Source of the DNA: Streptomyces sp. HUAS 15-9
GTDB lineage: Bacteria > Actinomycetota > Actinomycetes > Streptomycetales > Streptomycetaceae
Direction of reading: 5' to 3'
Assembly: GCF_025642155.1 (NCBI RefSeq)
Contig: NZ_CP106800.1
Location: forward strand, 32,072-96,071
DNA: 64,000 nucleotides
The translations under genes were made by a program, and so were the position numbers. Numbering within the stretch: the first letter of the stretch is position 1; every line of letters begins with the position of its first letter. Positions 29,891 to 45,675 of this stretch are shown here, one piece after another. Below the pieces are notes generated by a model. It saw only the letters and a program-made list of their open reading frames with translations. It was not told the DNA's origin and did not search any database.

Positions 29891-30058
29891 TCACATGTGA
29901 CGGAAAATGTCCGCCCCGTACGTCCCGAATGTGCGGTTGTTCGGGTCGGCTTCGGGGTTGCCCCGAGGGTTCCTGCTGCGGTTGTCCACAGCCGCGGGGC
30001 CCGTTCGGCGCGTCATCTGTCTACAGGTGATCTGGTCCATGGTCGCCGGATGGATCAT
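29891..30058 (-). CDS. Possible small protein, 55 aa
   Basis: It starts at ATG 30058 with GGAAGGA nine bases upstream: MIHPATMDQITCRQMTRRTG, then an Asn/Arg-rich stretch ending in GADIFRHM. It is divergent from the 30085 gene with only 26 bp between starts. The ribosome site supports it, but there is no family match. Confidence 0.35.
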   Translation of the reverse strand: MIHPATMDQITCRQMTRRTGPAAVDNRSRNPRGNPEADPNNRTFGTYGADIFRHM

Positions 30059-30084
30059 GTTCTGACGTCCTTCCGGGCGGGCCG

Positions 30085-31581
30085 ATGAGTGCCGTGGCGG
30101 CGCCGGCCGCCGTGATGGTTCCCGCTGCGCGTTCGTCAGTCGACGACGTCGCGGTCGACGTGCTGCCCGCGCTCTACGTGCCGGAGGCGCGGCAGTGGCT
30201 GTCAACGTCGGCGGGCCGGGTCGCGCCGGAGGGCTACTCGTGGATGCAGGGGGTGCACTGGGTGGCGGGTTCGGGTTTGTACGAACCGCGTCGGCACCGG
30301 TCGCACGGTCCGCGTTCGTTCGGGCGGACGACGGTGTTCATCGCGCAGCTGCTCAGCGAGCTGTCGCCGTGCCGTCCGGGGATCGAGTACCTGATGCGTC
30401 GCACCGGCCTGACGAAGCGGGCGGTGCAGAGCCACCTGCAGATTCTCCGGGAGACCGGGCTGCTTGCCTACATCGTGAAGGGCACGCGACAGCGGGGCGG
30501 GCCGCCGCAGGCGTCGGAGTTCGCGCTGATGCTGCCGCCCGAGTTCGATGCCGCGCTGGGGATCCGGACGGCTGGTGAGGGCACCGGGCGGCGGGTGACC
30601 GGGATCGCGGAGTTCGGTCGCAAGTTGATGGCGAAGCTGGCAGCGAAGGCGGCCCGGAAGGTGCGCCGGCCCCGGTCGCCGATGTCCTCGAGGACCGCGC
30701 CGAAGGCTGCCCGAAAGGGGGCTACGGAGGCCTCTGTGACTGCTGTTTCGGCGGAGTCCCGTTGCACCCCAATGGGGGGTAGTTCCTCAAGTGTTTCGAC
30801 TGCGAGTACTACTTCCTTCCCCCCTGAGAGCAAGCTCGCAAGCGGGGGCAGCGAGTCACCCATCCCGGAGAAGTCCAAGGCCAAGGCCGGCGGTCGCCGG
30901 AAGCTGAACACGGTCGGACGCCGCTTCCAGCTGGCGAGGGAGCTCACCCAGGAACTGGACTGGCTGCGCGGCTGCTCGGTGCCCCGGATCGCCTGGGTGG
31001 CCCGGACCGTTGCTGATGCCGGATGGACCGTGACCGACGTCCGTGCCTGGCTGCACTTGCGCGGCGAGGCGGCCCACGTCCGTCGGGGCTCCGGGCTGCT
31101 CGCCGTGCTGCTGGCCAACGCGGTGACCGTGCTGGACACCCCGGCCAAGCGGGCCGAGGCTGTTGCCCGGTGGCGCGGTGCTCAGGAGGCGGCCCGCCGT
31201 GACTGCATCCAGCAGGTCCGTGCCCAGCGGGAGCGGTTCGAAGGGGACTGGGAGGCACCTTCCAGCCGCTCCGTCCAGCGCGAGGTGGCGCAGGCGTTCG
31301 CCCAGGTCCGCGAGGTGGCTAACGGCGGCCGCCACCAGGACCAGGCCCCCAGCGTCGATGACCGGTGCGTGGACCCGGAGCTGAATGACCCGCAGGTCGA
31401 GCAGATGCGCGAGCAGGCGCACGGCGAGCTCATGCGGGGCGTGACCGACCTGATCGACCTGGCGGTCGACTCCATGGGCCCCGAGGCCGCCGAACAGCTC
31501 TACGGGGCGGACCTGATGCGCCGCGCCCGCCAGCTGGCAACTGCTACCCGCAGCTCGCTCATGACCATCACCCACCGGTAG
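30085..31581 (+). CDS. Winged-helix protein, candidate replication initiator
   Basis: 498 aa from ATG 30085. A winged helix lies at about 84-150 (FIAQLLSELSPCRPGIEYLM, LTKRAVQSHLQILRETGLL, then a wing). A Ser/Ala/Lys-rich linker (~190-270) leads to a helical domain with LARELTQELDWLRGCSVPRI and GWTVTDVRAWLHLRGEA. Streptomyces linear-element proteins of this build are usually annotated only as HTH or replication proteins. The DciA (helicase-loader-like) gene follows after 9 bp, which supports an initiator role. Evidence is context, not homology. Confidence 0.55.
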   Translation: MSAVAAPAAVMVPAARSSVDDVAVDVLPALYVPEARQWLSTSAGRVAPEGYSWMQGVHWVAGSGLYEPRRHRSHGPRSFGRTTVFIAQLLSELSPCRPGIEYLMRRTGLTKRAVQSHLQILRETGLLAYIVKGTRQRGGPPQASEFALMLPPEFDAALGIRTAGEGTGRRVTGIAEFGRKLMAKLAAKAARKVRRPRSPMSSRTAPKAARKGATEASVTAVSAESRCTPMGGSSSSVSTASTTSFPPESKLASGGSESPIPEKSKAKAGGRRKLNTVGRRFQLARELTQELDWLRGCSVPRIAWVARTVADAGWTVTDVRAWLHLRGEAAHVRRGSGLLAVLLANAVTVLDTPAKRAEAVARWRGAQEAARRDCIQQVRAQRERFEGDWEAPSSRSVQREVAQAFAQVREVANGGRHQDQAPSVDDRCVDPELNDPQVEQMREQAHGELMRGVTDLIDLAVDSMGPEAAEQLYGADLMRRARQLATATRSSLMTITHR

Positions 31582-31590
31582 GAGGCCCAG

Positions 31591-32463
31591 ATGACCGAGA
31601 CCACCACCATCGAGCAGGCCGGCTCGGACGGCCCCGAGCTGTCCGGTGTCGACCTCGCGCGGGTCGCGCTGCACGCCGCCCGCGATGCCGCCCGCAAGCG
31701 CGGCGAAACTGAGGCCCGGATGCCGCGCCGCCGCACACAGCGTGTCGTGAAGCGCGACGGCCGCGAGCCGAGCGGGTTCGCCGCCGTGCTCCAGGGCCTC
31801 ATGGCGGAGCGGGCCTGGGCGGTCCCGGCCGCAGGCGGCAGCGTCCTGGACCGCTGGCCGGACATCGCAGCCGCGGTCTCATCCCGGCTGCCCGAGCACG
31901 TCCAGGCCGTGGCCTTCCACCCGGAGAGCGGGCAGCTGGACCTACGCCCGGACTCACCCGCCTACGCCACCCAACTCCGCCTGATCACCGCCCGGATCAT
32001 CACCGCGGCGAACCAGGAAGTCGGCACCGACGCCGTCCGCACCGTCCGCGTCCTGGCCGCCGGCGCCGCGCCCGAGCCCCGTACGGCGGAGCCCGCCCCG
32101 CAGACCACGACCGCGCCCCCGGCGTCGGTGAAGACCCGCGACACCGCCTCGCCCGGCTACCACCAGGCGCTGGCCGCACACATGGCCGTCGCCCCCGACA
32201 GGCGGGTGGACCCGGGCATCGCGGAAGCAGTCGAGCGGCAGACCAGGGCCATGCGCGAGCTCAGCCGGCGGGCCTTCCCCGAGCCGGAGGCGTCCTCGGA
32301 CGACCAGCCGGCCCCGATCGAGGCGGCCCGCATCCAGCGCCGCCGCGCGTCCGAAGCCACCCACACCCTGGCGCTGCGCCGGGCCCGGGCCGAACGAGCG
32401 GCCCGTCAGACCGGGACGGCGGCTGCCACGCCGCAGCCCCCGGCGGTCCGGCGTACGGCGTGA
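31591..32463 (+). CDS. dciA: DciA / DUF721-family protein
   Basis: 290 aa from ATG 31591 (AGGAGG upstream). SGVDLARVALHAARDAARKR and FAAVLQGLMAERAWAVPAAG, then VLDRWPDIAAAVSSRLPEHV and LDLRPDSPAYATQLRLITAR, match the DUF721/DciA domain (about residues 60-155), which loads or recruits the DnaB helicase in bacteria lacking DnaC. Chromosomal Streptomyces dciA lies near recF and gyrB; this is an extra copy with a ~130-residue Ala/Arg tail. Decayed copies of that tail occur at 42225 and 43793. Confidence 0.8.
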   Translation: MTETTTIEQAGSDGPELSGVDLARVALHAARDAARKRGETEARMPRRRTQRVVKRDGREPSGFAAVLQGLMAERAWAVPAAGGSVLDRWPDIAAAVSSRLPEHVQAVAFHPESGQLDLRPDSPAYATQLRLITARIITAANQEVGTDAVRTVRVLAAGAAPEPRTAEPAPQTTTAPPASVKTRDTASPGYHQALAAHMAVAPDRRVDPGIAEAVERQTRAMRELSRRAFPEPEASSDDQPAPIEAARIQRRRASEATHTLALRRARAERAARQTGTAAATPQPPAVRRTA

Positions 32464-32641
32464 ATGCGCAGGCCAGGACCGACGGCGGACAGCCTCACCG
32501 GCGTGCCGGTTGAACTGGGCGATCGCCACCGCCTCCGTACCGTCCCGACATCTGCTTCTCGTAACCGGATCATTCGGCGCATTGCCGAATGACAAGATTG
32601 AGGATCTGCCAGGCGCAGGCAACGATCGGAGACCACAAGCG

Positions 32642-33544
32642 ATGCCGAAGAAGCGTAAGAAGAACCGCAAGGCGCCCCGGCAGAACAGCCCCAGGCGAAG
32701 CACTTCCCCGCAGCAGGCAGGTGCGCAGCCCGCCGACGGGGAAGCCGATTGGGAAAGCCTTCCCGATGAGGACTTCGACCCGCTCAGCGCCCTGGCCGAC
32801 CGGTATCCGACTCCGGCTGACGCAGTGAAGGCCGTCCAGGCCGGCGAGCCGGTGGAGTGGATCGGCGACGTTGAGGGCGCCACGATGCGCCACCGTGTCC
32901 TCCTCGCCGACAACGGTGAAGCCGTAGTCGAGCAGGCCGTCTTCCTCGACGGCACCCTGGAGCAGATGGTGCTGTGCGCAGCGCACCAGGCCGGCGAGCA
33001 CGGCAGGGACCAACTGCACACGGGCGTGCTCGCCGCTCTCGCCGCCCTGCACACGGTGATCCGGCCGATTGTGGAAGCCGGCGTCCGTAAGGTCCGTCCC
33101 GACTACACCGCTGCCGTACTTGAGTCCTTCCACGAGGCGCCCGAACCGAACGGTCCGGGCACACCGGTGTTCGGATGGCGTACCTTCCACAGCGTCGGCC
33201 CGGACACCACCTGGGACGACACGATCGACACGGCCACCTGGAACAGCTCCACCATGATGTCCGGCTTGGTCGGGGACTCGGACGACGTACCCGAGCTCCA
33301 ACCTCCCCAGCTGGCCCGGCTGCTGCACGACCATGGCGTCCCGGTCATCCTCTGCGCCAACTGCGGCGACCCCATCACCGACCGTCACCCACGATGGAGC
33401 GGTGTCTGGGTCTCGCCCAGCAACGACAGCGGGCCACTGTGTGAGGCTCCCGTCCCTGCACTGCAGCGCCCGGCTCCCAGGCTCGGGTGGCTCACCGACG
33501 CAGAGTTCTGCTACCCGCACCAACCCGCACCCGTGGGCGACTGA
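32642..33544 (+). CDS. Hypothetical protein, 300 aa
   Basis: It starts at ATG 32642 (GGAGACC upstream). A very basic N-terminus (MPKKRKKNRKAPRQNSPRRS) is followed by an acidic segment, then an alpha/beta body (TMRHRVLLADNGEAVVEQAV, VFGWRTFHSVGPDTTWDDTI) and a Cys pair (ILCANCGDPITDRH, EFCYPH). The basic tail could bind nucleic acid. No family recognised. It ends at a strong terminator. Confidence 0.55.
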   Translation: MPKKRKKNRKAPRQNSPRRSTSPQQAGAQPADGEADWESLPDEDFDPLSALADRYPTPADAVKAVQAGEPVEWIGDVEGATMRHRVLLADNGEAVVEQAVFLDGTLEQMVLCAAHQAGEHGRDQLHTGVLAALAALHTVIRPIVEAGVRKVRPDYTAAVLESFHEAPEPNGPGTPVFGWRTFHSVGPDTTWDDTIDTATWNSSTMMSGLVGDSDDVPELQPPQLARLLHDHGVPVILCANCGDPITDRHPRWSGVWVSPSNDSGPLCEAPVPALQRPAPRLGWLTDAEFCYPHQPAPVGD

Positions 33545-33555
33545 CGACGTGCCAA

Positions 33556-33607
33556 GACGCCGCGGGGCAGGGGCCAGCCGAAGCGCCGGGACCTGCCCCG
33601 CGGCGTC
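33556..33607. terminator. Strong bidirectional terminator
   Basis: A 16-bp perfect inverted repeat (33556-33571, GACGCCGCGGGGCAGG; 33592-33607) lies between convergent genes ending at 33544 and 33613. Confidence 0.75.
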
Positions 33608-33612
33608 ACCGG

Positions 33613-35406
33613 CTATCGCAGTGGAGCCGCTCCCAGGGCAGGGGCGAGATCTTGGATGCCGTCGAGCAGTTCCCCAAAAGTGATCTTTTCGTCCGTGGGG
33701 CCGTAGTCGAGGGCCTGGAGCAGGGCGGTCCATCGTTGCGGCTGGGTGCCACAGAGGGCGAGCAGGTGGGGCAGGGCGAGGTCGGGCTCGCTGCGGGTGA
33801 GGATCTCGTCTGCGGGCAGCTGGCGCAGGTGATCGAGGGTGCGGTGGCGGGAGTCCAGGACGGCACGGTAGACGTCCCGGCGTGACCAGAACCCTTCGGA
33901 CTCGGGAGCGTCGAGCCAGGACTGCAGGACAGCGGCCGGGTCGGGGTGGCGGTCGAGCTCCTCGTCGGTGAGCAGCCGCAGCACGGCTTCGTTGGTGTCG
34001 GCCGGGGCAAGGGCGGCCGCGGCCGTGTGCAGCCACTCGGGGACGTCGTTCTGGTGGCAGAGCCAGGCAAGTTCGAGCGGGTGCAGCCCGGGGAGGGTAT
34101 CGGTGACCGCGGCGCGCGGGGTGTGCCGGTTGCCGGCGAGTGCGGTCAGCGCGGCGACGCGCCGGTGCTGGTAGTTGTGCTCCAGGAGGCGGACCGGACT
34201 GAGCAGGTCGGTGCCGTCGGTGACGCGGGACAGGCGGGGGCTGGGCGGGGTGGAGACGACGGCGGGCTGTTCCAGCGTGGCCAGCAGGGCGCAGGCCTTG
34301 GCCAGGTGGGCGGGGCTGGTGCTGAGCAGGGCCAGGTCCTCGGCAATCGCGACGGCCCGGTGCTTGCGGTCGTCGTTGCGCGGTGGGGTGAGCAGGCGGC
34401 CGCGGCGGACACATTCGTCGGCGGCCGCCTGCAGCTGGGTGGCTGCGATGTCGGTGAGACGGGGGTTGTAGCGGACCCGGTTGGCGATGTGGTGGAGCCG
34501 GTGGCGGGCGTTCACGCTCGGCTTGGGCAGGCCGGCCATCTCCGGCAGGCACAGGGCGGGCAGGCAGGCCCGCAGCAGGGCGGTGTCGAGCGCCGGCTCC
34601 GGCTCGGGCTGCTCGGCCGGGCTGTCGTCCGTGTCTCCGGTGAGGGAGGAGCTGCTGGCCGCTATCATGCGGCTGCGTCGGGACTCGACTTCGGCCTGGT
34701 CCAGCAGGAGGTGCTGGACGGCGGTGCCGAGGGTGGGGTGTTCGACCAGGTCGTGCCAGCGCTCGGGGCAGGTCGCGAGGATGCGCCAGGGAGCGCCTTC
34801 GCCGAACTCGTGGGGCAGGCCCCGGTCGACACGTTGCGCGAACTGCCATTCCTCGTGCTGCGGGTCCTTCAGCAGCCGGGCGAGCGGGGTGAGGGCGTGC
34901 TCCAGGACCGCGTCGAAGAGCGCCGGGGGGATAGGAGGGGCCGGTTCGGCGTCCGGCCGGTACAGGTGGCGGTTGGGCTCCCAGTCGGTGACGACGTCCT
35001 CGAGGTCGGTGTCGTGCATGCCGGGCAGCAGGCCGATCGCGGCGTCGACCTGGTCGGGGTGGCGGGCCAGGCCGATGACCAGGCCCGGCGTCGGGCGGTG
35101 GGTGCGCAGGATCGTCGGCAGGTCGCCGGCCACAACGACGCCCTGGCCGGCGAGTTCGGCGAGCTGCTTGTCGTCGGCCTGCTGAAGGAGTTGGCGGCGC
35201 AGTCCGGGGCGGGTGACGCGGCTGAGCAGGGCCGGCAGTGCGTCCGCGAGGGCCTTGGCGCGGCGCTCTTCGCCGCGGCTGTCGACGCCGTAGGGGGCCA
35301 GGGAGGTCGAGCACAGTGCCTCGATCACCGTGGGCAGTGCCTCGTCCGGCAATGCGTCGCTCACGGCGAGCTGCTGCCACAGCCAGTACGTCCCGGCGTT
35401 CACCAT
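33613..35406 (-). CDS. Large helical-repeat protein, 597 aa
   Basis: It starts at ATG 35406 (GGGGAGG upstream). Almost entirely helical, with repeated units such as RVTRPGLRRQLLQQADDKQL, DLPTILRTHRPTPGLVIGLA, NRVRYNPRLTDIAATQLQAA and VLRLLTDEELDRHPDPAAVL, suggesting a HEAT/ARM-like solenoid. There is no enzyme motif or membrane segment. In cargo regions such proteins can be sensors or scaffolds of defence modules; here that is only a guess. Monocistronic, with its own terminator. Confidence 0.55.
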   Translation of the reverse strand: MVNAGTYWLWQQLAVSDALPDEALPTVIEALCSTSLAPYGVDSRGEERRAKALADALPALLSRVTRPGLRRQLLQQADDKQLAELAGQGVVVAGDLPTILRTHRPTPGLVIGLARHPDQVDAAIGLLPGMHDTDLEDVVTDWEPNRHLYRPDAEPAPPIPPALFDAVLEHALTPLARLLKDPQHEEWQFAQRVDRGLPHEFGEGAPWRILATCPERWHDLVEHPTLGTAVQHLLLDQAEVESRRSRMIAASSSSLTGDTDDSPAEQPEPEPALDTALLRACLPALCLPEMAGLPKPSVNARHRLHHIANRVRYNPRLTDIAATQLQAAADECVRRGRLLTPPRNDDRKHRAVAIAEDLALLSTSPAHLAKACALLATLEQPAVVSTPPSPRLSRVTDGTDLLSPVRLLEHNYQHRRVAALTALAGNRHTPRAAVTDTLPGLHPLELAWLCHQNDVPEWLHTAAAALAPADTNEAVLRLLTDEELDRHPDPAAVLQSWLDAPESEGFWSRRDVYRAVLDSRHRTLDHLRQLPADEILTRSEPDLALPHLLALCGTQPQRWTALLQALDYGPTDEKITFGELLDGIQDLAPALGAAPLR

Positions 35407-35439
35407 GCTCTTTGGCCCTCCCCGGCGCGTTGACTCGGC

Positions 35440-35695
35440 GTGACCGGCCGGTCACCGCCGTTCCTGGTGTGACCGTACGCGTGGCGCCCGCCCACCGGCC
35501 CGGGTTTGGCGAAATGCCCGGATCGTCAACCGCGCAGTTCGCGCTGGGCTCGGTCGCGGAGCGCTGCGGGGCCAGCATGGCCTCGAGGACCACGCATTTG
35601 CGCTGGGTTCCGGCCGGCGATTTGGTGTCGTCGAGGACGCCCTGGAGGACGCCCTGTTCGATCTGGGCAAGCGGGGTGCGTTCACGTCGGTTCAT
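35440..35695 (-). pseudogene. Remnant of an AbiTii-like gene
   Basis: Read leftward from ATG 35695, MNRRERTPLAQIEQGVLQGV and LDDTKSPAGTQRKCVVLEAM resemble the N-terminal start of AbiTii-domain proteins (an abortive-infection-linked domain). The similarity stops after ~40 residues, and the frame then runs out of register into the next gene. The 16-bp palindrome GTGACCGGCCGGTCAC (35440-35455) marks the boundary. Confidence 0.4.
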
Positions 35696-35820
35696 GACTG
35701 CATTGCGCGAGGTCCCGACCGATACCACTTCCCCCGCCTGTGCGGTCATAGGGCTATTGCCGCAGGTAGGCGCGCCGTCCTGCGGGGCCGCGGGGTGGTG
35801 AACACACCCGGCTGGAATGT

Positions 35821-35857
35821 GGGTATTTTCTGGGCATCAAAGCGGGTATTTTGTGGG
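35821..35857 (+). promoter_or_regulatory. Paired direct repeats upstream of the synthetase-like operon
   Basis: GGGTATTTTCTGGG (35821-35834) and GGGTATTTTGTGGG (35844-35857) are 23 bp apart, unusually AT-rich for the window, and end about 20 bp before ATG 35878. A regulator-binding site is likely. Confidence 0.5.
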
Positions 35858-35877
35858 TAAGACCTGAAGGAGGTCTC

Positions 35878-36777
35878 ATGCCCACCGATGCCAAGACGCT
35901 GGCGGTCGAGCTGCGTCGCCTGTTGCGCCGGGGACTGCCGGTCGATCCTGCCGCCGTCGGCGGCGAGCTGCTGGACCTGCCCGGTGTCGTGGCGCGGGCT
36001 CACGGTTCGAACGATCTGGCCGTGCGCGCCCACGCCCTGGACGGGATGCTGCGCGGGCAGCTGGCCCGCCTGCCGCATGCCCCTCTCGCCCCGGCCGCCC
36101 GGCTGCTGTTCGGCGCAGTCCCCGCCACGGCGGGCGTGACGCTGACGGCCCGCCGGGCGGAGGCCGCCAAGGTCTCCGGTTACGAGGTGCACCACTTCCG
36201 CAAGCACATCGAGCCCCGCATCTGCACCCTGCTCGCCGAACAGCTGCTGGCCGACGCCCAGGCGTTCGCGGCCGCGCACGCGGCCGCGCCCCGTCTGTCG
36301 CCGGAAGCGGGCTCGCTGCGGCTGCCAGCGGACGTGTTCGCCTGGGAGGTCGCCGAACACGAGGAAGCGCTGTGCGAGCTGTGGTCGAGGCTGTACGCGC
36401 TGCGGGCTGCACTGCTGAGAACGGCGCGACTGGCGAGCATGGATGACGCCGTTCCGCCGGAGGCTTCGGATGAGGTGCTGTGGCGGTACGTGGCACTGAG
36501 GGCAGCCATCGCTCGCTACCGCGCTGCCTACGGCCCTGTCCTGCTGCCCGCTGACACCGCCCCGGTTGCTCCGGCCGACCTGGAGAAGCTGGCCGGGCCC
36601 CTGCCCCAACTGCCCCCGACCGACCTGGCGTTGCTGTCCGCCCTCCCCGTGACGGCCGATTGGCAGGCCTTCACCGCTCGGCTCGGTGAGACGGGCGACG
36701 GCGTGCGGATCCGTGACGCCTGGCACGAGGCCCTGATCGAGCAGTTGACCGACACCACCGCAAGGAGAACCGCGTGA
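35878..36777 (+). CDS. Helical hypothetical protein, first gene of the synthetase-like operon
   Basis: 299 aa from ATG 35878 (GAAGGAGG upstream). Helical throughout: LAVELRRLLRRGLPVDPAAV, GYEVHHFRKHIEPRICTLLA, DVFAWEVAEHEEALCELWSR. It has no enzyme motif; GYEVHHFRKHIEPRI is common to small Streptomyces regulatory and effector modules. Its GTGA overlap with the P-loop gene and the 20-bp gap after that make the three genes one operon. Probably a partner or sensor subunit; function unknown. Confidence 0.55.
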   Translation: MPTDAKTLAVELRRLLRRGLPVDPAAVGGELLDLPGVVARAHGSNDLAVRAHALDGMLRGQLARLPHAPLAPAARLLFGAVPATAGVTLTARRAEAAKVSGYEVHHFRKHIEPRICTLLAEQLLADAQAFAAAHAAAPRLSPEAGSLRLPADVFAWEVAEHEEALCELWSRLYALRAALLRTARLASMDDAVPPEASDEVLWRYVALRAAIARYRAAYGPVLLPADTAPVAPADLEKLAGPLPQLPPTDLALLSALPVTADWQAFTARLGETGDGVRIRDAWHEALIEQLTDTTARRTA

Positions 36778-37340
36778 GCACACCACATCCGCCCCGCCGC
36801 TTCGTCATCACCGGCGGCCCCTCTTCCGGGAAGGAGGCGGTCTTCGACGAGCTGCACAAGCGCGGTCTGCCCGCCTCCACCGGTGAGATCGCCCGCGAGA
36901 TCTACCGCAAGCACCGTGACCGGCTCGGCCGCCATCTGCAGGTCAGCGACCGCCGCGAGTACTCCCGGGAGGTCCTGGAGGGCTTCGTTGCCGAGTACTG
37001 CGCTCACAAGGCCGGCGACCGGTTCTACAACCGCGGCATCCCCGACGGCTACGGCTGGGACGCCTTCTTCGGCCTGGGCCCCTACCCGGAGCTGGAGGAA
37101 GCCGCCCGTACCTACCGCTACGACACCGTGTTCGTCCTGGACGCCCTGGACGACTTCACCACCGCCGACGACGTGGTCTGGGCCCGCGAACGCGAGATCG
37201 CCCGGGTCCACCAGCTGATCATCCAGGGCTACTACGACGCCGGATACCGGCCGATCTTCGTGCCCGTCGACTCCGCCCCGGCGCGCGTCGACTTCATCCT
37301 CGCCCAGATCTCCGCCCCACCTGCCACCTCACACACCTGA
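36774..37340 (+). CDS. P-loop ATPase/kinase with altered Walker A
   Basis: 188 aa from GTG 36774. FVITGGPSSGKEAVFDELHK, then STGEIAREIYRKHRDRLGRH, FYNRGIPDGYGWDAFFGLGP and YRYDTVFVLDALDDFTTADD follow the AAA_28/NadR-kinase-like P-loop fold, with a late helix RVHQLIIQGYYDAGY. The Walker A carries Glu (GKE) in place of the usual Thr/Ser that binds magnesium, so ATP hydrolysis may be altered. Coupled to both neighbours. Confidence 0.65.
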   Translation: MSTPHPPRRFVITGGPSSGKEAVFDELHKRGLPASTGEIAREIYRKHRDRLGRHLQVSDRREYSREVLEGFVAEYCAHKAGDRFYNRGIPDGYGWDAFFGLGPYPELEEAARTYRYDTVFVLDALDDFTTADDVVWAREREIARVHQLIIQGYYDAGYRPIFVPVDSAPARVDFILAQISAPPATSHT

Positions 37341-37360
37341 CCTCACCCGGGGGAAGACCG

Positions 37361-38797
37361 ATGACAACAACGCCGTTGCTCGTCTCGCCCAACAACGTCA
37401 CCGCCAACTGCATGGCCCGCGCGGTCGACCTGATCCGTCCCCGGATCCAGGCCACCAAGCCGCAGAACGTGGTCTTCAGCGTCGGCACCCAGATCAACGG
37501 CACCCCGCACCTGGGGACCTCGCTGGTGCAGACCGCCGCGTTCCTCCTCGCCCAGGCCGTGCGCAGGAACTTCGGGATCGACGCCACCGTGCGCTTCGGG
37601 GCCCTAGACAACGCCCCGCACGAGATCCGGCTGGACCCCGAGACCCACCACGCCTACCAGATCACCTACTTCCACGCCCTGGGCGCGGACGGCGTCGCCG
37701 ACATGATCGGCAAGTACTACCGCAACTTCTTCGACAGCCTCGCCGACGCCACGGGCATCGACTACGAAGTCCACACCTACACCCAGCAGCAGGCCGACCC
37801 CGCCTACCGGCTCGGCTTCCTCGCCACGCTGGAGCGCCTCGAGGAGATCCGCTGGGCCCTGGCCCCCTCCCACGGCATCGTCCACGTCCGGCTGCCCTGC
37901 CCCACCTGCGGCTGGGCTGAAAAACGCGCGGAACGCACCCGGCTGGACATACACGGTTCCGGCGGCGCCGTATTCAAGGCTGTGTGCACCGACCACGGCC
38001 CCTATGAGGTCCTGGTCACCCCCGACCGGCCCGAGCCGTACATCGACCTCGCCACGCTCTACCGCAACCTCGTCAAAGAGCGCCTGCCCGCACCGCCGCG
38101 CACCCTCAACGTCATGGTCAAGGGCGGCGACTGGGCCTACGGCTGCCAGCTGGTCGACGAGGCCTTCGCCGCCCTGCCCGGCCCCGGCGCCCCGCCACGC
38201 ATCTTCACGCCGATGGTGCTCACCGACACCGGCGCCAAGCTGTCAAAATCGCTGATCCGCGAGGGCACCGTGCCCCCGCCGCCCGGCGCCCGCCCGTGGA
38301 TGCTCGACGCCACCGCCTGGGACGGCAGCGTCGACGACTACGTCGACGCCATGGTCTGGCTGGTCGGCGTCATGCTCGCCGACCCCAAGCACTTCTACCG
38401 CTCCTACACCACCCAGGAGATCGACCGCCTCATGACCCGCCACACCGCAGCCCCCGCCCAGCCCCGCGCCCGGCACATGAACCTCTACCGCCGCTACTTC
38501 GACCTGGTCGCCTCCGGCCGTAAAACGATCGAGGTCCGCGTCCAGTACGCCAACCTGCGCAACCTCGCCGCCGGCCAGCACATCAAGTTCGCCTGCGGGC
38601 AGGACGAATGCCTGGTCCGCGTCGTCCGCGTCGCCCGCTACGCCTCCTTCGAGGAGATGCTCGACACCGAAGGGCCGGAGAACGTCAACCCCGACTCTCC
38701 GCGCGAGCAGCAGCTGACGAACATCCGCCGTATCTACGGCCCGGAGAAGGAGGCCTTGGGCGTCCTCGCCATCGAGATCGAACGCGTCACCGCCTGA
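37361..38797 (+). CDS. Class I aminoacyl-tRNA-synthetase-like protein fused to an ASCH domain
   Basis: 478 aa from ATG 37361. NVVFSVGTQINGTPHLGTSL holds a HIGH-like motif (HLGT, residues 50-53). LTDTGAKLSKSLIREG holds KLSKS (293-297), matching the KMSKS loop of class I synthetases in the style of LysRS-I. CPTCGW (180-185) and CTDHG (209-213) may bind zinc. There is no anticodon-binding domain; instead residues ~373-478 (MNLYRRYFDLVASGRKTIEV, LAAGQHIKFACGQDECLVRV) form an ASCH RNA-binding-like domain. Probable activity: nucleotidyl transfer or aminoacyl activation on a tRNA or nucleotide. Not a housekeeping LysRS. Confidence 0.7.
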   Translation: MTTTPLLVSPNNVTANCMARAVDLIRPRIQATKPQNVVFSVGTQINGTPHLGTSLVQTAAFLLAQAVRRNFGIDATVRFGALDNAPHEIRLDPETHHAYQITYFHALGADGVADMIGKYYRNFFDSLADATGIDYEVHTYTQQQADPAYRLGFLATLERLEEIRWALAPSHGIVHVRLPCPTCGWAEKRAERTRLDIHGSGGAVFKAVCTDHGPYEVLVTPDRPEPYIDLATLYRNLVKERLPAPPRTLNVMVKGGDWAYGCQLVDEAFAALPGPGAPPRIFTPMVLTDTGAKLSKSLIREGTVPPPPGARPWMLDATAWDGSVDDYVDAMVWLVGVMLADPKHFYRSYTTQEIDRLMTRHTAAPAQPRARHMNLYRRYFDLVASGRKTIEVRVQYANLRNLAAGQHIKFACGQDECLVRVVRVARYASFEEMLDTEGPENVNPDSPREQQLTNIRRIYGPEKEALGVLAIEIERVTA

Positions 38798-38809
38798 CCG
38801 CGTACACAA

Positions 38810-38854
38810 AGGCGCCCTGTCCCCGGCATTCCAGCTGCCGGGGACAGGGCGCCT
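38810..38854. terminator. Strong bidirectional terminator
   Basis: A 19-bp perfect inverted repeat (38810-38828 with 38836-38854, loop TTCCAGC) lies between convergent genes ending at 38797 and 38884. Confidence 0.8.
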
Positions 38855-38883
38855 CGCATGCTAACCGCGCCTGACCATCGTCG

Positions 38884-39111
38884 TCAGCGGCGGATATGGA
38901 CGGTCACATTGACGATCGCGCCGCCGGCGAAGACCGTGCCGCCGAACCAGGCCACAGCCGTGATCTGCTCCGTGTGTCCAAAGGCGGCCAGCAGGCAGAT
39001 CGCGACCATTGCCAATAGTGCAGTGAGGGCAGGCGCCGTCTGGCCGACGCGGGCAAGACGGGACGCCGGTCTCACTGATGTACTGTTTCGCGGTGTCGCT
39101 TCAGGATTCAT
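38884..39111 (-). CDS. Small two-helix membrane protein, 75 aa
   Basis: It starts at ATG 39111. A polar N-terminus (MNPEATPRNSTSVRPASRLA) is followed by two membrane helices (about 27-45 and 51-72) and a tail VTVHIRR. The ribosome site is weak. No family recognised. Confidence 0.5.
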   Translation of the reverse strand: MNPEATPRNSTSVRPASRLARVGQTAPALTALLAMVAICLLAAFGHTEQITAVAWFGGTVFAGGAIVNVTVHIRR

Positions 39112-39608
39112 CTCTCATGATTTCGCTCGTGCGGATGTGATCTCAGCGCGACACCGGGGAGTCCTCGGCCGTGCCCTGCGCCGTCCAAAGCTCGGGCATG
39201 ACCTCGGGGCTCCCCTTTGCGTGCCGGGACCACGATGGTCGGGCGGAGAGTACGTGCCCTGGCTTTGACCGCCACCCCCCGCGAAGAGATCCACGACGTA
39301 GAACTACACCGGCAGTTGACCGTGGACGCTTCGCTGCGCATCCTGCACCCACTGTCGGCGGGAAAGCCAATCCGGCACCCGTAGGAGTCGCAAGAACACC
39401 CTGGGGAGTCACACGAAATGCGGGCCGACAGGCGGTGCGGCTATCCCCAAGGCGGCTCGCTGATCTGCACGTTGGTCCTGCCGGCCTGCCATCTGCTCCG
39501 GCGTATGCAGACCCGGTTCGCGCAATTCGCTGCAACTTCGTGGCGCCCGCGTCCCGCGGCCCGTCAGGCTGGTCCTCGCATCTGACCGGCTGGACAGGGA
39601 GGACAGGC
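39112..39608. other. 497-bp spacer without a recognised gene
   Basis: Frames on both strands are GC-biased, low-complexity shadows without ribosome sites or motifs. It may hold the promoter of the 39609 gene. I see nothing else certain. Confidence 0.3.
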
Positions 39609-40172
39609 ATGACGGTCGCGGACAACCCGGTGGCGAGCGACGAAGACGTGCAGTCGGTACGCCGGTGGGTGCGGCTGTCGTGCACAGAGCCGGGCACCCA
39701 TCTGCCCGCCCTGGCCACGATCGCGCGGCAAGTCCAGCTGCCGACGGCCGTGGTCCGCTCCGCTCTGGAACAGCTCACCGCCGAAGGGCTGGTGACCCTC
39801 CACGATGGCTACCGCCTTTACAGCGTCGGCACGATGACCCCAACCGAGCGCGCCTACCGGCTCATCCGCGCCTCAATTCACCGCAGCTTCCTGCCGGGCG
39901 AGCGGTTCATGAACCGCGACGAGATCGCCCGCACGTTCGAGATCGGCACCAAGGAAGCCGCGGCCGCGGTGCGCCTGCTGGTGGCCGAAGGGCTGCTTGT
40001 GGGGCCGCGCGGGCAGTACGTCAACGAGTACAGCCCCCAGCAGCAGCGCCGGCGCGTGAAGCAGCTGCGCGAGCGCGCCAGCGATCTGCGCCGCGAGGCT
40101 CTCGAACTGATGAAGACGGCACGGGAGATTGAGCAGCAGATGGACGCCGACGACGGTGCGAAGGACACGTAG
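39609..40172 (+). CDS. Tandem winged-helix DNA-binding protein (GntR-like)
   Basis: 187 aa from ATG 39609 (GGGAGGACAGGC upstream). Two winged helices in series: residues ~15-75 (LATIARQVQLPTAVVRSALE, QLTAEGLVTLHDGYRLY) and ~82-145 (AYRLIRASIHRSFLPGERFM, KEAAAAVRLLVAEGLLVGPR), then a C-terminal helical coil. It lacks a ligand domain. Probable transcriptional regulator; it is convergent with the CoiA-like gene. Confidence 0.65.
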   Translation: MTVADNPVASDEDVQSVRRWVRLSCTEPGTHLPALATIARQVQLPTAVVRSALEQLTAEGLVTLHDGYRLYSVGTMTPTERAYRLIRASIHRSFLPGERFMNRDEIARTFEIGTKEAAAAVRLLVAEGLLVGPRGQYVNEYSPQQQRRRVKQLRERASDLRREALELMKTAREIEQQMDADDGAKDT

Positions 40173-40201
40173 CCCCGCCCGCAACGCCCGGCGCCCCACC
40201 G

Positions 40202-42061
40202 CTATTGGTAGCGCCAGTGCTCGTGGACCTGCTGCACGTTTGCCTGGAGCAGGTCGCGCAGATCGTCGTCGTCATCGGGCAGGCCCAGGCCCAGCGCACC
40301 GGCGACCTCGCGGTACGGCGTCGTCATATCCGGGTCTCCCGCGGCGACCAGACAGGACAGCAGCGCCTGGTCGGCCGGTGTGGCCCGGTCGGCCAGCGTC
40401 AGAACCTGGACGCGGTCCGCGAGCGTCATGTGGGGCAGTGCGGAGCCAAGTTGCTGCTCCAGGCGGTGCCAGCTGGTGGTGGTCTGCTCGCGGGCGGCCT
40501 TCTTGAGTGCCCCGCGGACGGCAGCGGCGGCGGATTCCACAACGCCCGGAGCGAGCTCGCGGCGCGCCTGGCGCGCCTGGCGTTCCTCGGCCCGCTTCTT
40601 GGCCCGGGTCATCCTCCTGATCCAGAAGCTCGCCTCTTGCCGCTCACTGTCGGACAGCCAGTCACCAGCGGTTTCCACGGCTGGGGCCAGTTCTTCCGTC
40701 AGTCTCCGCTGCTCGGCAGTAGAGAGATGGAATCGCTGGTCGAGGTGCTGAAGGATGCTCCTGGCCTGGACCACGGCCGCGCGACGTGCTCGCCGTTCCT
40801 TCCGGGAGGTGTTCGGCTCCTTCTTCGGCTCCTCCCTCTTCGGCTTCTCCTTCTTTGGCTCTTTCTTCTGCTGCTCCTTCGGCGCCTTGTGTGACCTGGG
40901 TGCTTCCTGTGGCTTGGAGCGTTTGCGCTGGGGGCGCCGTGGCGGGGGCAGGGTGAGGGGGGTGAGTACGGTCCGGGCCGATCCGGCGGCGGGCAGGCCG
41001 TCCTGCTCCCGGAGGAAGGCGCGGGCCGCGGCCAGGACGCGCTGCTCGGCGGCGCTGGCACCGCGGCGGGTGAGCGACACGGCGGTCGGCAGCTGGGAGC
41101 GCACATCGAAGGCGCGCTTCTCGGTGACCGCCTGGTCGAGTCCGGCGAACACGCGCTGCTGGTAGTCCTCGTGGCCGGTCAACCACGTCCGGGCCTCCTG
41201 AACGGCCTGCTCGGCTTCGGCGCGGGCTGCGCCGTCGAGGCTGTCGAGGAAGGGGCCGCTGCCGGCGCACAGGCGCCGCACGTGCTCGACAGTCCCAGAG
41301 CGCTGCGCTGCCTCCAGGCCGCGTATGAACCGGATAACGCTCTTCGGCAGGGCACCGGAGCAGTGTCCCGTCTCCGTCGCATGGGCGGGAGCAGCGGCAT
41401 GGTCACGAAGGATCTGGGCTGCGGCCGGAGTTATCAGGCCGTCGTCGGTCCACACGCAGTCGGCGAGGGGTACCCAGTCAGTCGAGCGGGCCAGGCTCTG
41501 CGTGCCGATCCAGACCCGCCGGTCGGCCCCGTCACTCTCGCACCGCACCCGGTACACATACGGGCAGCTCGACAGCACGCCCGGATCCGGCACCACACCG
41601 GGGCCGAGGACGACAGTACGGCCGCCGGCCCAGTCCGGCGGCACCAAGCCGTCCATGTGCACCCGCAGGGAGAGACCGTCTTCAAGGTCCACGTCCAGCA
41701 GCGAGCCGATCGGCTGCGGGAAGGCGAACCGGCCGGCCCGGCCGTGCTCCAGCAGGGACCGGGACATCGCCGACTTCACATACAGATGGTCGGCACTCGA
41801 CTCACCGACCCGTGGCCGGCGGCAGGCATGCGGGGCCCCGTTGGGCTGCGGAAAGTGCTGGAAATGACACTGACGATCGATGTACAGCTTGTGCGCCAGC
41901 TGGGCACCGCAGCCACCCAGGAGCACCCCGCACCAGAACGTGTCGTGGGCGTGCGCGCGCCGGAAGCCGTCCAGCTCGATCGCCTCGGTCGGCAGAACGA
42001 CCGGAACGTCCGAGTGCTCATCACCAACCACTGCAGTCTGAACCAGCCGCGTGTCGCGCAC
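40202..42061 (-). CDS. CoiA-like zinc/nuclease-type protein, paralog of the 43993-45675 product
   Basis: 619 aa. GTG 42061 is chosen because it aligns with the paralog start; TTG 42076 is possible. TFWCGVLLGGCGAQLAHKLY, CHFQHFPQPNGAPHAC and ADHLYVK give Cys44, Cys51, Cys65-His66, His69, Cys80 and His92, the zinc-binding N-terminus seen in competence-protein CoiA-like predicted nucleases. A beta-rich middle is followed by a ~230-residue Lys/Glu-rich linker and a helical C-terminal domain ending LQANVQQVHEHWRYQ. Probably a DNA-handling or defence nuclease; activity not shown. Confidence 0.55.
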   Translation of the reverse strand: MRDTRLVQTAVVGDEHSDVPVVLPTEAIELDGFRRAHAHDTFWCGVLLGGCGAQLAHKLYIDRQCHFQHFPQPNGAPHACRRPRVGESSADHLYVKSAMSRSLLEHGRAGRFAFPQPIGSLLDVDLEDGLSLRVHMDGLVPPDWAGGRTVVLGPGVVPDPGVLSSCPYVYRVRCESDGADRRVWIGTQSLARSTDWVPLADCVWTDDGLITPAAAQILRDHAAAPAHATETGHCSGALPKSVIRFIRGLEAAQRSGTVEHVRRLCAGSGPFLDSLDGAARAEAEQAVQEARTWLTGHEDYQQRVFAGLDQAVTEKRAFDVRSQLPTAVSLTRRGASAAEQRVLAAARAFLREQDGLPAAGSARTVLTPLTLPPPRRPQRKRSKPQEAPRSHKAPKEQQKKEPKKEKPKREEPKKEPNTSRKERRARRAAVVQARSILQHLDQRFHLSTAEQRRLTEELAPAVETAGDWLSDSERQEASFWIRRMTRAKKRAEERQARQARRELAPGVVESAAAAVRGALKKAAREQTTTSWHRLEQQLGSALPHMTLADRVQVLTLADRATPADQALLSCLVAAGDPDMTTPYREVAGALGLGLPDDDDDLRDLLQANVQQVHEHWRYQ

Positions 42062-42224
42062 CGTGGCGACCCCCAATCCCCCTTAGTCAACGATAGATCC
42101 GCAGGCAGCACGCACGACAGGAGCTTGCCGGGGCACCGATCGGGCCAGTGCTTGCCATTGCATGCGCGAGCACCGCCACGGCACCGGTGTCAGGCCAACG
42201 GCAGGGCGGTGGGCGAGGCCTGCT

Positions 42225-42430
42225 CCGTGGGTGGGCCCGGGCATCGCGGAGGCCGTGGCGTGGCCGACCAGGGCGATGCGCGAGCTGAGCCGATGGGCGT
42301 TCCCGGCCGGAGATATCCTCGGACGACCAGCCGGCCCCGATCGAGACGGCCCGCATCCACCGCCGCCGCGAGTCCGAGGCCACCCACGCCCTGGCCCCGT
42401 GCCGGGCCCGGGCCGAAGGCCGCCAGGGGC
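42225..42430 (+). pseudogene. Decayed copy of the dciA 3' end (copy 2)
   Basis: GIAEAV, TRAMRELSRWAFP and, in another frame, RRRESEATHALAPCRARAE match the end of the 31591-32463 DciA-like product (GIAEAVERQTRAMRELSRRA; RRRASEATHTLALRRARAER), with frameshifts. No start or N-terminal domain. It sits between the CoiA-like gene and the 42504 gene. Confidence 0.65.
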
Positions 42431-42503
42431 GGCCGGGACGGAGACACCGCTCTTGCATTGACTGGCATGCTTCATTTCCCACCCCTTCTGCAAGGAGACT
42501 GCA

Positions 42504-43313
42504 TTGGCCACGTTCGAGCCGCCGAAGAACTGGACCGAGCAGGATCGCGAGCACTACCTCCAGCAGGTCATGCGGAGCGGTTGGACGCGGATGCGTCCGT
42601 ACTCGCTTCTGTTCCTGCTCCTGGGGGTGGGGATCGCAGAGCGCGGGGCCACTCCGGAGGATCTGAAGCGCGGGGTGCGCAACGCTGACAACCCGGAAGG
42701 CAACTTGGATGCCTCCTGCTGGGAGGACCCTGAAGACCTCGACGATGAAGAACGTGCCCAGCACGCGACGCACGTTGAGGACGCTGAGCGCTATGCAGCT
42801 GCATACGGGCGGCCGCCCCTGCGCACCCACACCGATGTCCTGGACCTTCTTGTGGCGGCAGGCGCCATTTACGAGGTGCCCGACGGAACCGGCGTAGCGC
42901 GCTTCTACCCCAAGGTCCCCGCGCCTGCGCCCGCAGATGTGTTCCCCCTAGATGAGGAAGAAGCCGCTGTCCAGAGGCAGCTTCGGATCGACAGCGCATA
43001 CGAGGGCGACTCGTACCGCATCATCGAGCTCTTCGAACCTGACGGGAAACGCCACGAGGAAGTGGTGACCAGCCTGGACCGGCTCGCCCGGCTCATCAAG
43101 GGCGACCCCCACGACGCACGCGAGGCGGTCCGGCTCCTGACCGAGGCGGGCGACTTCGCCACCAGCCTCGATCTTGACGGCCTCCCGTCGCACAAAGTCT
43201 TCCGTATCCGGTGCAACTGGGACCGATTCGACCAGGCACGGATCGGGATTCAGGGCATGACCGAGGACGGCAGGCTCTCGGTCACGTTGCCCAGCGAACT
43301 GGACCGGCCGTAG
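42504..43313 (+). CDS. DUF6042-like hypothetical protein
   Basis: 269 aa from TTG 42504 (AAGGAGACTGCA upstream). SGWTRMRPYSLLFLLLGVGI, AERYAAAYGRPPLRTHTDVL and HEEVVTSLDRLARLIKGDPH resemble the actinobacterial DUF6042 family, a mixed alpha/beta protein of unknown function. No catalytic motif. It starts just after the decayed dciA tail. Confidence 0.5.
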   Translation: MATFEPPKNWTEQDREHYLQQVMRSGWTRMRPYSLLFLLLGVGIAERGATPEDLKRGVRNADNPEGNLDASCWEDPEDLDDEERAQHATHVEDAERYAAAYGRPPLRTHTDVLDLLVAAGAIYEVPDGTGVARFYPKVPAPAPADVFPLDEEEAAVQRQLRIDSAYEGDSYRIIELFEPDGKRHEEVVTSLDRLARLIKGDPHDAREAVRLLTEAGDFATSLDLDGLPSHKVFRIRCNWDRFDQARIGIQGMTEDGRLSVTLPSELDRP

Positions 43314-43396
43314 CCGCCGCCCGTCGTACAGCAGGAAGAGAGATCACAAATACGGGAAGGCCGGCCGGGTCGCCTGACGGCCAAGCCCAGTCGCAT

Positions 43397-43738
43397 TCAC
43401 TGGCCCACATGCTTCATCAGCGCTTCCCACAACTGGCTGTCGAGCCCGTTGATTTCGGCCTGGAGCTCTCGGACGTCTCCGTCTCCGCTGCCGATCTGGT
43501 CAAGCATGCTGTGGATGTTCCACATCAGCCTATGGGGCATGGCTACTTCACGCGGCAGCCCTGCCGTGCCCGTTGCCGGGACGCGCCACCCCAGGGGAAC
43601 CTGAGGATCTTGGTCGTGAGTGATCTCCTCAAGCACGGTGTCCGATGATGCTCCGCCAGCCTTCGCTTGGTTGATGAACTGCTCAAGCAGGCCGATCGTG
43701 ACCGGCTCATCCCACGTGACCTCAATATTCAGCCCCAT
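43397..43738 (-). CDS. Hypothetical protein, 113 aa
   Basis: It starts at ATG 43738 (GAAGGGA upstream). MGLNIEVTWDEPVTIGLLEQ, VPLGWRVPATGTAGLPREVA and a helical C-terminus (LQAEINGLDSQLWEALMKHV) suggest a small alpha/beta protein. No family recognised. Convergent with the 42504 gene. Confidence 0.5.
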   Translation of the reverse strand: MGLNIEVTWDEPVTIGLLEQFINQAKAGGASSDTVLEEITHDQDPQVPLGWRVPATGTAGLPREVAMPHRLMWNIHSMLDQIGSGDGDVRELQAEINGLDSQLWEALMKHVGQ

Positions 43739-43792
43739 AGCAGTCCCTTCTCGCGGCGAAGTCGCCCTATCCAAGCAGCCCCTTCGGGTGAG

Positions 43793-43912
43793 GTGCGAGC
43801 GGTGCCGCGAATCCGAAGCGATCCGGGTTCTTGCGCTGCGGCGGGCCCGGGCGGAGCGTGCCGCTCGTCAGGCCGACACGTCGGCTGTTCCTGCCGAGCC
43901 TGTCCCCTGCGT
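43793..43912 (+). pseudogene. Decayed copy of the dciA 3' end (copy 3)
   Basis: CRESEAIRVLALRRARAERA, then ARQADTSAVPAEPVPCVRRL, matches the last ~45 residues of the 31591-32463 product (ASEATHTLALRRARAERAAR, then TGTAAATPQPPAVRR). No upstream dciA sequence remains. It lies directly before the second CoiA-like gene. Confidence 0.65.
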
Positions 43913-43992
43913 ACGACGGCTTGAGCACGTCGATCGTCTGTGAGGCCAACGCCGTTGGTGGCACGATAAGTTGGAATGAAAGGTGGGGGTTC

Positions 43993-45675
43993 GTGCAGGG
44001 TGACAGGCGGCAGATTCAGACGGCGGTCCTGGGCGGCGCGGACTCGGAGGATCCGCTGATGCTGCCGCTGGAGGCGATCGAGCTGGACGCCTTCCGCCGC
44101 CATCACGAGCACGACACGTTCTGGTGCGGGCTGCTGCTCGGAGGCTGCGGCCTCCAGCTGACGACGAAGCTGTACACCGATCGGGTCTGCCACTTCGCCC
44201 ACTACCCCGGTCCCGACGGGCACCCGCACGTGTGCGGGCGGCGCGCCCGCGGCGTGAACAGCGCCGACCACCTGTACGTGAAGTCCGAGGCCGCCGCCTG
44301 GCTCCGCAACCGCGGCCTTCAGGCCGACTTCGAGTTCACCCAGCCCGAGGGAGCGCCGGTCGGCTCGGTCGTGGACATCCAGTTCCAGCACGGCGGGCTG
44401 CGCGTGCACTTGGACCAGGCGGTTCAGCCGGCGTGGGACCAGGACGGCCTCGAGCCGGTGCTCGGGATGTCGGTGCCGGTGGAGCGGGACACCCTGATCG
44501 ACCGCTGGTACGTCCATCGCATCCGGCTGAACAGCGAGGGCACCAGCCGGAAGGTCCAGATCGGCACGGAGGCGTTCGCGCGGGAACCCGAGTGGTTCGC
44601 GCTGGACGACTGCGAGATGACGGAGCGGGGGCTGTCGACGCCGGCGGTCGAGCGGATCGTCCGCGCCCGCAGCACACGCCCTCCGTCACGGTGGCCGACG
44701 GGCAAGGTCAAGAAGGTTCCGGGCACCGAGGCACGCGCCCAGGTCGTTCTGCGCCGGCTGGCTGATGCCCTGAAGGTGGAGTCCGTGGTCGTGGTCAACC
44801 GGGTACTGGGCGAGATCGCCGCCGTAACTGGTGTGAGCCAGCAGACTCAGGCCGAGCTGGACACGGCCGTGGCGGGGGCGAACCGCTGGCTGGAGGGGCA
44901 GGCCGAAGTCCGGCGAGACCTGTTCGCCCGCCTGGACGAGGCCGTGGCCGCCCGGCGCACCAAGCAGATCCGGGAACTCCTGGCCCGTGTCAACGCGACC
45001 GCGAGCCACGACCGCACCGACACCGAGGATGTCATCGCGGCCGCGGCCGCCGACTACATGACCGCCTTCACCTCGGAGGCCTACGAGCGGGTCCGGGGCA
45101 TCCTCGATGGTCTCAGCCGCACCGGGCGACATCTGCAACCTGCGCAGATGCGCCCCCTGGTGGAGAAGGCCATCCAGGCAGCGGCCGACGCAGGGAGCCT
45201 CACGGGCGACCGCGAAGCAATCCAGATCGCCTACTGGAAGGAGCGCGCGGGCCTCAACCAGCCGACCTCGCCCTCCCCGGCCAGGCCCGCCCGGGCGGCA
45301 CCCGCCGGAGACCAGCAGCAGCCCAGACGGAGGAATCTGCACAAGCAGGTGGCACGCCGATACTGGATCAAGAGAAGCTGCCCGCGCTGCCACGCCGGCC
45401 AAGGCCACAACTGCGTCATCGACAACCAGACCAGCACCGGCGAGGTGCGCAACGTCCCCCATGACGAGCGGCTCCAGCCGATCCTCGAAGAACGAAAGGC
45501 CAAACAGCAACAGCAGACCCCGCCACCGTCTCCGTGGCGCGTGTACGACGTCACGTGTCCCGACTGCAGCCAGGGCCCTGATGCTCGCTGTGAAAGCCCC
45601 GGCGGCCCGCACCGCTCACGAGTCGAGCTGGCCAAGGAGTACAGCCGTCTCCGGAAGCCCCCGCCGAAGAGGTAG
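43993..45675 (+). CDS. CoiA-like protein with C-terminal zinc motifs
   Basis: 560 aa from GTG 43993. It shares QTAVLGG, EAIELDAFRR, DTFWCGLLLGGCGLQLTTKL, CHFAHYPGPDGHPHVC and ADHLYVKSEA with the 40202-42061 product, so the two are paralogs in opposite orientation. Its linker is shorter, and the C-terminus carries two zinc motifs (CPRCHAGQGHNC...PHDERLQ and CPDCSQGPDARCESPGGPH) of the type seen in actinobacterial phage zinc-finger proteins. Probable DNA-binding or nuclease-like factor. Confidence 0.55.
   Translation: MQGDRRQIQTAVLGGADSEDPLMLPLEAIELDAFRRHHEHDTFWCGLLLGGCGLQLTTKLYTDRVCHFAHYPGPDGHPHVCGRRARGVNSADHLYVKSEAAAWLRNRGLQADFEFTQPEGAPVGSVVDIQFQHGGLRVHLDQAVQPAWDQDGLEPVLGMSVPVERDTLIDRWYVHRIRLNSEGTSRKVQIGTEAFAREPEWFALDDCEMTERGLSTPAVERIVRARSTRPPSRWPTGKVKKVPGTEARAQVVLRRLADALKVESVVVVNRVLGEIAAVTGVSQQTQAELDTAVAGANRWLEGQAEVRRDLFARLDEAVAARRTKQIRELLARVNATASHDRTDTEDVIAAAAADYMTAFTSEAYERVRGILDGLSRTGRHLQPAQMRPLVEKAIQAAADAGSLTGDREAIQIAYWKERAGLNQPTSPSPARPARAAPAGDQQQPRRRNLHKQVARRYWIKRSCPRCHAGQGHNCVIDNQTSTGEVRNVPHDERLQPILEERKAKQQQQTPPPSPWRVYDVTCPDCSQGPDARCESPGGPHRSRVELAKEYSRLRKPPPKR

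Follow-up and report, generated by a model that had tools for sequence, protein, structure and literature searches.

The 64-kb window analysed here (the whole stretch of DNA, 64,000 nucleotides of Streptomyces sp. HUAS 15-9; G000:C3:32072-96071, within a 96-kb contig of a 9.6-Mb genome in three contigs) contains a three-gene cassette, p1-p2-p3, that is real, conserved and undescribed. A dedicated repeat array precedes the genes, and a hairpin closes the set. p1 (35878-36777, ATG start, 299 aa) is predicted to be all-helical. p2 (36774-37340, GTG start, 188 aa), which shares its first 4 nt with the end of p1, is a kinase-like P-loop protein of the AAA_28 family (PF13521). p3 (37361-38797, ATG start, 478 aa) combines a class I synthetase core with ASCH, a small domain of nucleoside- or RNA-binding type. 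All three open reading frames (ORFs) are on the plus strand and have a coding-like third-position GC content. Thus, the operon proposed by an earlier sequence-only reading exists; the start proposed for it, 35821, falls within the repeats rather than in p1. We favour the reading that the cassette is mobile and that p3 is an amino-acid ligase with an acceptor other than canonical tRNA, p2 a kinase and p1 a regulator, a combined proposal whose chances we judge to be evenly poised.

The cassette proteins

The profile of class I lysyl-tRNA synthetase (LysRS; PF01921) scored only 11.1 bits on p3 against a cut-off of 27, and therefore the p3 core was not placed by sequence alone. The predicted structure (AF2 model, pLDDT 92.1), however, places the core (residues 19-372; 37415..38476, plus strand) as a class I (HUP-type) synthetase. 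The best fold match was class I LysRS (1irx), and class I synthetases fill the rows of the match list below 1irx, BshC and the ASCH entries. The match to 1irx stops at residue 361 of the 507-residue chain, and p3 continues as ASCH (residues 369-477; 38465..38791, plus strand). According to the model, p3 is without a C-terminal anticodon-binding domain, and ASCH sits where LysRS has that domain. This upholds the earlier description of p3 as a class I core lacking an anticodon domain and carrying ASCH.

The HIGH-like and KLSKS signatures that had been pointed out before are present as PHLGT (residues 49-53) and KLSKS (residues 293-297). P[HR].GT was found in 96 of the 99 p3 ORFs and KLSKS in 95. 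The exceptions are truncated or broken ORFs without P[HR].GT (L032, L035 and L046) or without KLSKS (L036); the variants KLAKS or KISKS occur in L096, L097 and L099. The metal-ligand-like residues C180, C183, C209 and H212 were invariant in both alignments. As modelled, p3 is a class I LysRS/BshC-type adenylation core that has kept its catalytic signatures, and amino-acid activation is likely its chemistry.

The fold match to class I LysRS would also be expected of a spare lysyl-tRNA synthetase for translation. We consider this explanation almost certainly wrong. In addition to the failed PF01921 cut-off and the missing anticodon domain, the amino-acid-pocket region of p3, read from the alignments, differs from that of the host LysRS-I. 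Since a full LysRS-I gene is present elsewhere in the host genome, p3 is not needed for lysine charging.

The ASCH profile (PF04266) scored 39.3 bits on the p3 C-terminus (cut-off, 21.2). The octapeptide GRKTIEVR (residues 386-393) fits GxKxx[ETS]xR, the published ASCH definition, and G386, K388, E391 and R393 are each more than 95% conserved in an alignment of 96 ASCH sequences and the query. YqfB amidohydrolases carry their nucleophile, Thr24, within this octapeptide. A YqfB-type amidohydrolase activity of the p3 ASCH domain is unlikely because E391 replaces the threonine.

The second gene had been read as a P-loop ATPase, and p2 matched AAA_28 with 81.6 bits (cut-off, 27). Its conserved motifs are LGRHL and NRGIPDGYGW, and at least five invariant arginines and two invariant histidines lie around LGRHL. 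p1 gave neither a Pfam match (E<=1) nor a fold match (E<=0.001). Its predicted all-helical structure had a pLDDT of 87.5 but a pTM of 0.61. Residues 42-135 weakly resemble sigma-factor regions, and residues about 86-133 may form a helix-turn-helix (HTH)-like module followed by long helices. p1-like N-terminal stretches were also found in other actinobacterial proteins. In one of these (L120:1432-2580), the region attached to the stretch matches a Macro domain below the threshold; the protein at L122:1348-2493 is similar to it by eye, but has no Pfam match.

Distribution, mobility and promoter array

Relatives were sampled through p3. Since only the best 80 of 106 relatives were used, the locus sample is incomplete. 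Over 100 loci and the window, p2 stood beside a fused p3 (type A) at 34 distinct loci, the window included, and p1 was present at 33 of them; the locus without p1 is from a metagenome-assembled genome (L031). The 34 loci include two identical copies in one genome, L013 and L014. A search started from p1 found operons in G000 (the genome of the window), G450 and G393, and one cut off by a contig end; in G450 and G393, p1 is followed by p2 and p3. A search started from p2 found G000, G046, which has p1 and p3, and one distant AAA_28 protein in another setting. Among viral contigs, p2 matched a single contig, on which p3 is also present. Remote AAA_28 relatives are widespread; among 69 plasmid records, the identity is below 60% in 67. 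Pairwise distances correlated at 0.88 for p1-p2, 0.80 for p2-p3 and 0.71 for p1-p3 (495 pairs). These comparisons support the view that the three genes travel together. Of the two findings that the earlier reading named as counting against it, a fold of the first p3 domain other than HUP-type and a separate distribution of the three genes, neither was seen.

Loci without p1 and p2, mostly with a separate adjoining ASCH gene (type B), numbered 61 plus a copy in the same genome as the window. They occur in Streptomyces, plasmids, viral contigs and three phage records (two Picard, one Mojorita). Within 6 kb, 46 of the 61 loci have a regulator belonging to one of five or six XRE/TPR-like clusters and 20 have a methyltransferase-like gene, the cluster and gene names being assigned by reading. 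The own-genome copy, which is split (G000:C2:131094-132538; L002, L147), lies on a 249-kb contig, and its synthetase and ASCH are 49% and 61% identical to p3; a HATPase-like gene precedes it. The pair of the Streptomyces phages Picard and Mojorita (L098:11986-13457) lies between lysis and integrase genes, beside a DUF397/regulator module. Loci without ASCH constitute type C. In a quick tree, type A fell on one side of a branch with a support of 88 (not starred). Of 394 genomes of the class, 13 yielded p3 relatives. A gene read as low-molecular-weight-phosphatase-like comes after the fused p3 at L033, L082 and L185.

When region 30001-44000 was compared with L004 of Streptomyces griseomycini, the nearest relative, by blastn (E<=1e-10), the sole match was 35809-38863, with 88.95% identity. 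The similarity starts just before the array and stops just past a terminator-like hairpin (38810..38854, plus strand; a 19-bp perfect stem read from the sequence), which is common to both. Five type A loci have resolvase genes nearby, and a long gene at three loci was read as a Tn3 transposase. The comparison indicates that the cassette, with 35809..38863 as the putative unit of transfer, is a self-contained unit moving horizontally among actinobacteria. In Actinomadura violacea, the identical cassettes L013 and L014 lie on one contig together with resolvase and transposase-like genes.

The upstream repeats, which had been suggested to mean tight control, are operator-like direct repeats in the window, TGGGTATTTTCTGGGC (35820-35835) and CGGGTATTTTGTGGGT (35843-35858), 23 bp apart on the plus strand (35820..35858). 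These two matches, one with one mismatch, compare with 0.13 expected in the window. The exact form TGGGYATTTTCTGGGY occurs once in the genome, and one further site with one mismatch is on the large contig. TGGGY-N6-TGGGY was present in 35 of 37 regions reaching from 150 bp before the p1 start to 40 bp beyond it (L014 was omitted as a copy and L130 for its short length; the pattern is missing in L024 and L027). By comparison, 4 of 7159 random windows from these loci and 21 of 7400 shuffled sequences contained it. Since the regions are related by descent, the 35 are not independent events. Half-site spacings peaked at 11 (56), 23 (41), 12 (21) and 34 (20). With a slightly different pattern, no type B locus had an array within 2.5 kb. 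L027 has the most divergent p1 (35-36% identity) and, by reading, TGGTG repeats in place of TGGGY, as would fit a p1-operator pair. From its sequence conservation, the array is a dedicated promoter feature of the cassette.

Relatives' operons and candidate functions

ASCH-less relatives keep the core signature. In Pantoea, the synthetase gene is in one tight operon with genes for a methyltransferase, a LOG-type protein, a DMT exporter and Ham1. In Macrococcus, it accompanies two ATP-grasp genes and a divergent MFS gene, and its product reached 23.8 bits with PF01921 (cut-off, 27). L181 (G626) encodes a p3 core homologue (50% identical) near PALP, OCD, carbamoyltransferase, methyltransferase-like, PhyH and transport genes; L181:354-12547 has the appearance of a metabolite-type cluster, with the PALP, OCD and carbamoyltransferase genes around the p3-like ligase. 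L182 (G467) and L183 (G561) have M20, AlaDH/PNT, methyltransferase, synthetase and AdoMet decarboxylase genes, in a conserved operon of AlaDH/PNT, M20, methyltransferases, synthetase-like and AdoMet decarboxylase-like genes (L182:982-10602, L183:3676-10421). L184 (G776) has related genes, and its M20 and synthetase frames run together. The company of the ASCH-less relatives, being metabolite-type operons, is the most useful clue to function and favours amino-acid ligation in small-molecule pathways, without proving what the p3 substrate is. This agrees with the aminoacyl-linked metabolite among the functions first proposed. The natural-product synthetase-like enzymes SbzA and AcmF are reported to be tRNA-dependent, which tempers this reading of the relatives.

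An RNA-directed synthetase would place the amino acid on a tRNA or on a modified base in RNA; ASCH would take over RNA binding from the anticodon domain, and p2 would prepare or repair the RNA. The domain arrangement is consistent with it: Glu-Q-RS and a CysRS that charges SelC-like tRNA are likewise class I cores without an anticodon domain, and PUA/ASCH domains are frequently fused to RNA-modifying enzymes. The ASCH domain was basic in the five fused p3 proteins examined, whereas it was acidic in all three split-type proteins examined. No tRNA gene recurs near the 42 loci scanned, where eight predicted tRNA genes of differing identities were found at six loci. YqfB-type ASCH proteins are reported not to bind nucleic acid, and the ASCH-less relatives in metabolite-type operons also speak against an RNA target. 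We regard this explanation as possible but somewhat unlikely; the acceptor to which p3 links an amino acid is probably not a normal tRNA.

Defence was also among the functions first proposed, and it has scattered support. In a defence or toxin-antitoxin-like system, the product of p3, or p3 acting on tRNA or nucleotides, would halt growth upon phage infection, and p1 would be both repressor and sensor. p3 relatives are sporadic, occur on plasmids, prophage-like contigs and phage genomes, and the layout is autoregulated; ASCH-containing toxin-antitoxin operons with AAA ATPases have been predicted in the literature. A linear plasmid of Streptomyces koelreuteriae has a PycTM-like (PF18967) gene (L100:7200-7682) immediately upstream of its type B pair, and one L004 neighbour matches CBASS-type HNH effector models. 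However, p1, p2 and p3 had no PADLOC 2.0.0 match at E<=1, and the cassette has no effector domain. The 150 neighbours of 30 type A loci belong to diverse families (most frequent Pfam family, HTH, 7), and no PADLOC family occurs in more than two of these proteins among the 25 of 64 families listed, by raw counts. We judge defence to be unlikely.

For ten proteins around the operon in the window, the only PADLOC matches at E<=0.01 were two weak ones to Csa3 (HTH). The AbiTii remnant formerly placed beside the operon was not borne out, the minus-strand ORF at 38884-39111 being without a Pfam match at E<=0.01. A DciA-like gene (PF05258) lies at 31591-32463, with an ARAGORN tRNA-Thr call inside it on the opposite strand, and 33613-35406 encodes a 597-aa minus-strand protein without a Pfam match at E<=1 or a PADLOC match at E<=0.01.

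The exporters in some of the relatives' metabolite-type operons, and the form of a mobile one-promoter cassette, which may be typical of resistance genes, would suit resistance or detoxification: the cassette would use aminoacylation, phosphorylation or both to inactivate an antimetabolite from outside, and the drug would be sensed by p1. No drug or export gene is present in the cassette, and no direct evidence points to this role, which we hold to be distinctly unlikely. Still more doubtful is a new kind of mobile signalling or immunity cassette. In it, p3 would make an aminoacylated nucleotide-like messenger, which p2 would help to phosphorylate and which p1 would read by way of the cassette's 11-bp-periodic operator; such a cassette would be a peptide-bond counterpart of nucleotide second-messenger systems, carried on plasmids, transposons and phages.

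In the favoured reading of the cassette as a mobile ligase unit, p3 would activate an amino acid with ATP, and ASCH would hold the acceptor that receives it, a small and perhaps nucleotide-like molecule. p2 would phosphorylate the acceptor or the product. p1 would bind the TGGGY array and control the operon, perhaps sensing substrate or product.

Known systems and significance

In line with the earlier supposition, our literature search found no description matching the cassette and no paper pairing 'ASCH domain' with 'tRNA synthetase'. From class I LysRS (PF01921; PDB 1irx), p3 differs in the points given above. MshC/BshC-type ligases ligate cysteine to a glucosaminide. The similarity of p3 to BshC (4wbd) and MshC (8hfn, 3c8z) is in fold only and does not imply orthology, and ASCH, p1 and p2 are new in the cassette. 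The acceptor of the Glu-Q-RS-like synthetases that modify RNA is a tRNA base, and Glu-Q-RS acts on queuosine; we know of no ASCH in Glu-Q-RS, which is GluRS-derived, unlike p3. SbzA, AcmF and the MetRS-paralogue/cupin systems (Iyer 2010) are likewise synthetase-like enzymes in metabolite pathways, but belong to other synthetase families (Ile, Ala and Met), with no ASCH in the text searched. The ASCH-containing (PIN)-GNAT-EVE operons also place ASCH next to an AAA ATPase in mobile or conflict settings, whereas the cassette has no GNAT, PIN or EVE. Phages Picard and Mojorita carry the two p3 domains in adjoining genes, phrog_35625 ('tRNA synthetase') and phrog_19935 ('RNA-binding protein'); unlike the cassette, these are split, lack p1 and p2, and are annotated without a known function.

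A class I LysRS-like lineage thus extends across at least actinobacteria, Pantoea, Macrococcus and phages, with an ASCH partner fused or adjoining. One lineage adds a dedicated promoter array and two genes, one kinase-like and one helical, to this pairing. For several amino-acid families, synthetase cores are already known to have been repurposed outside translation. If the cassette makes an aminoacyl metabolite, it would represent a new ligase family, in the form of three genes that are compact and testable as a unit; action on RNA would instead make it a new route of RNA aminoacylation.
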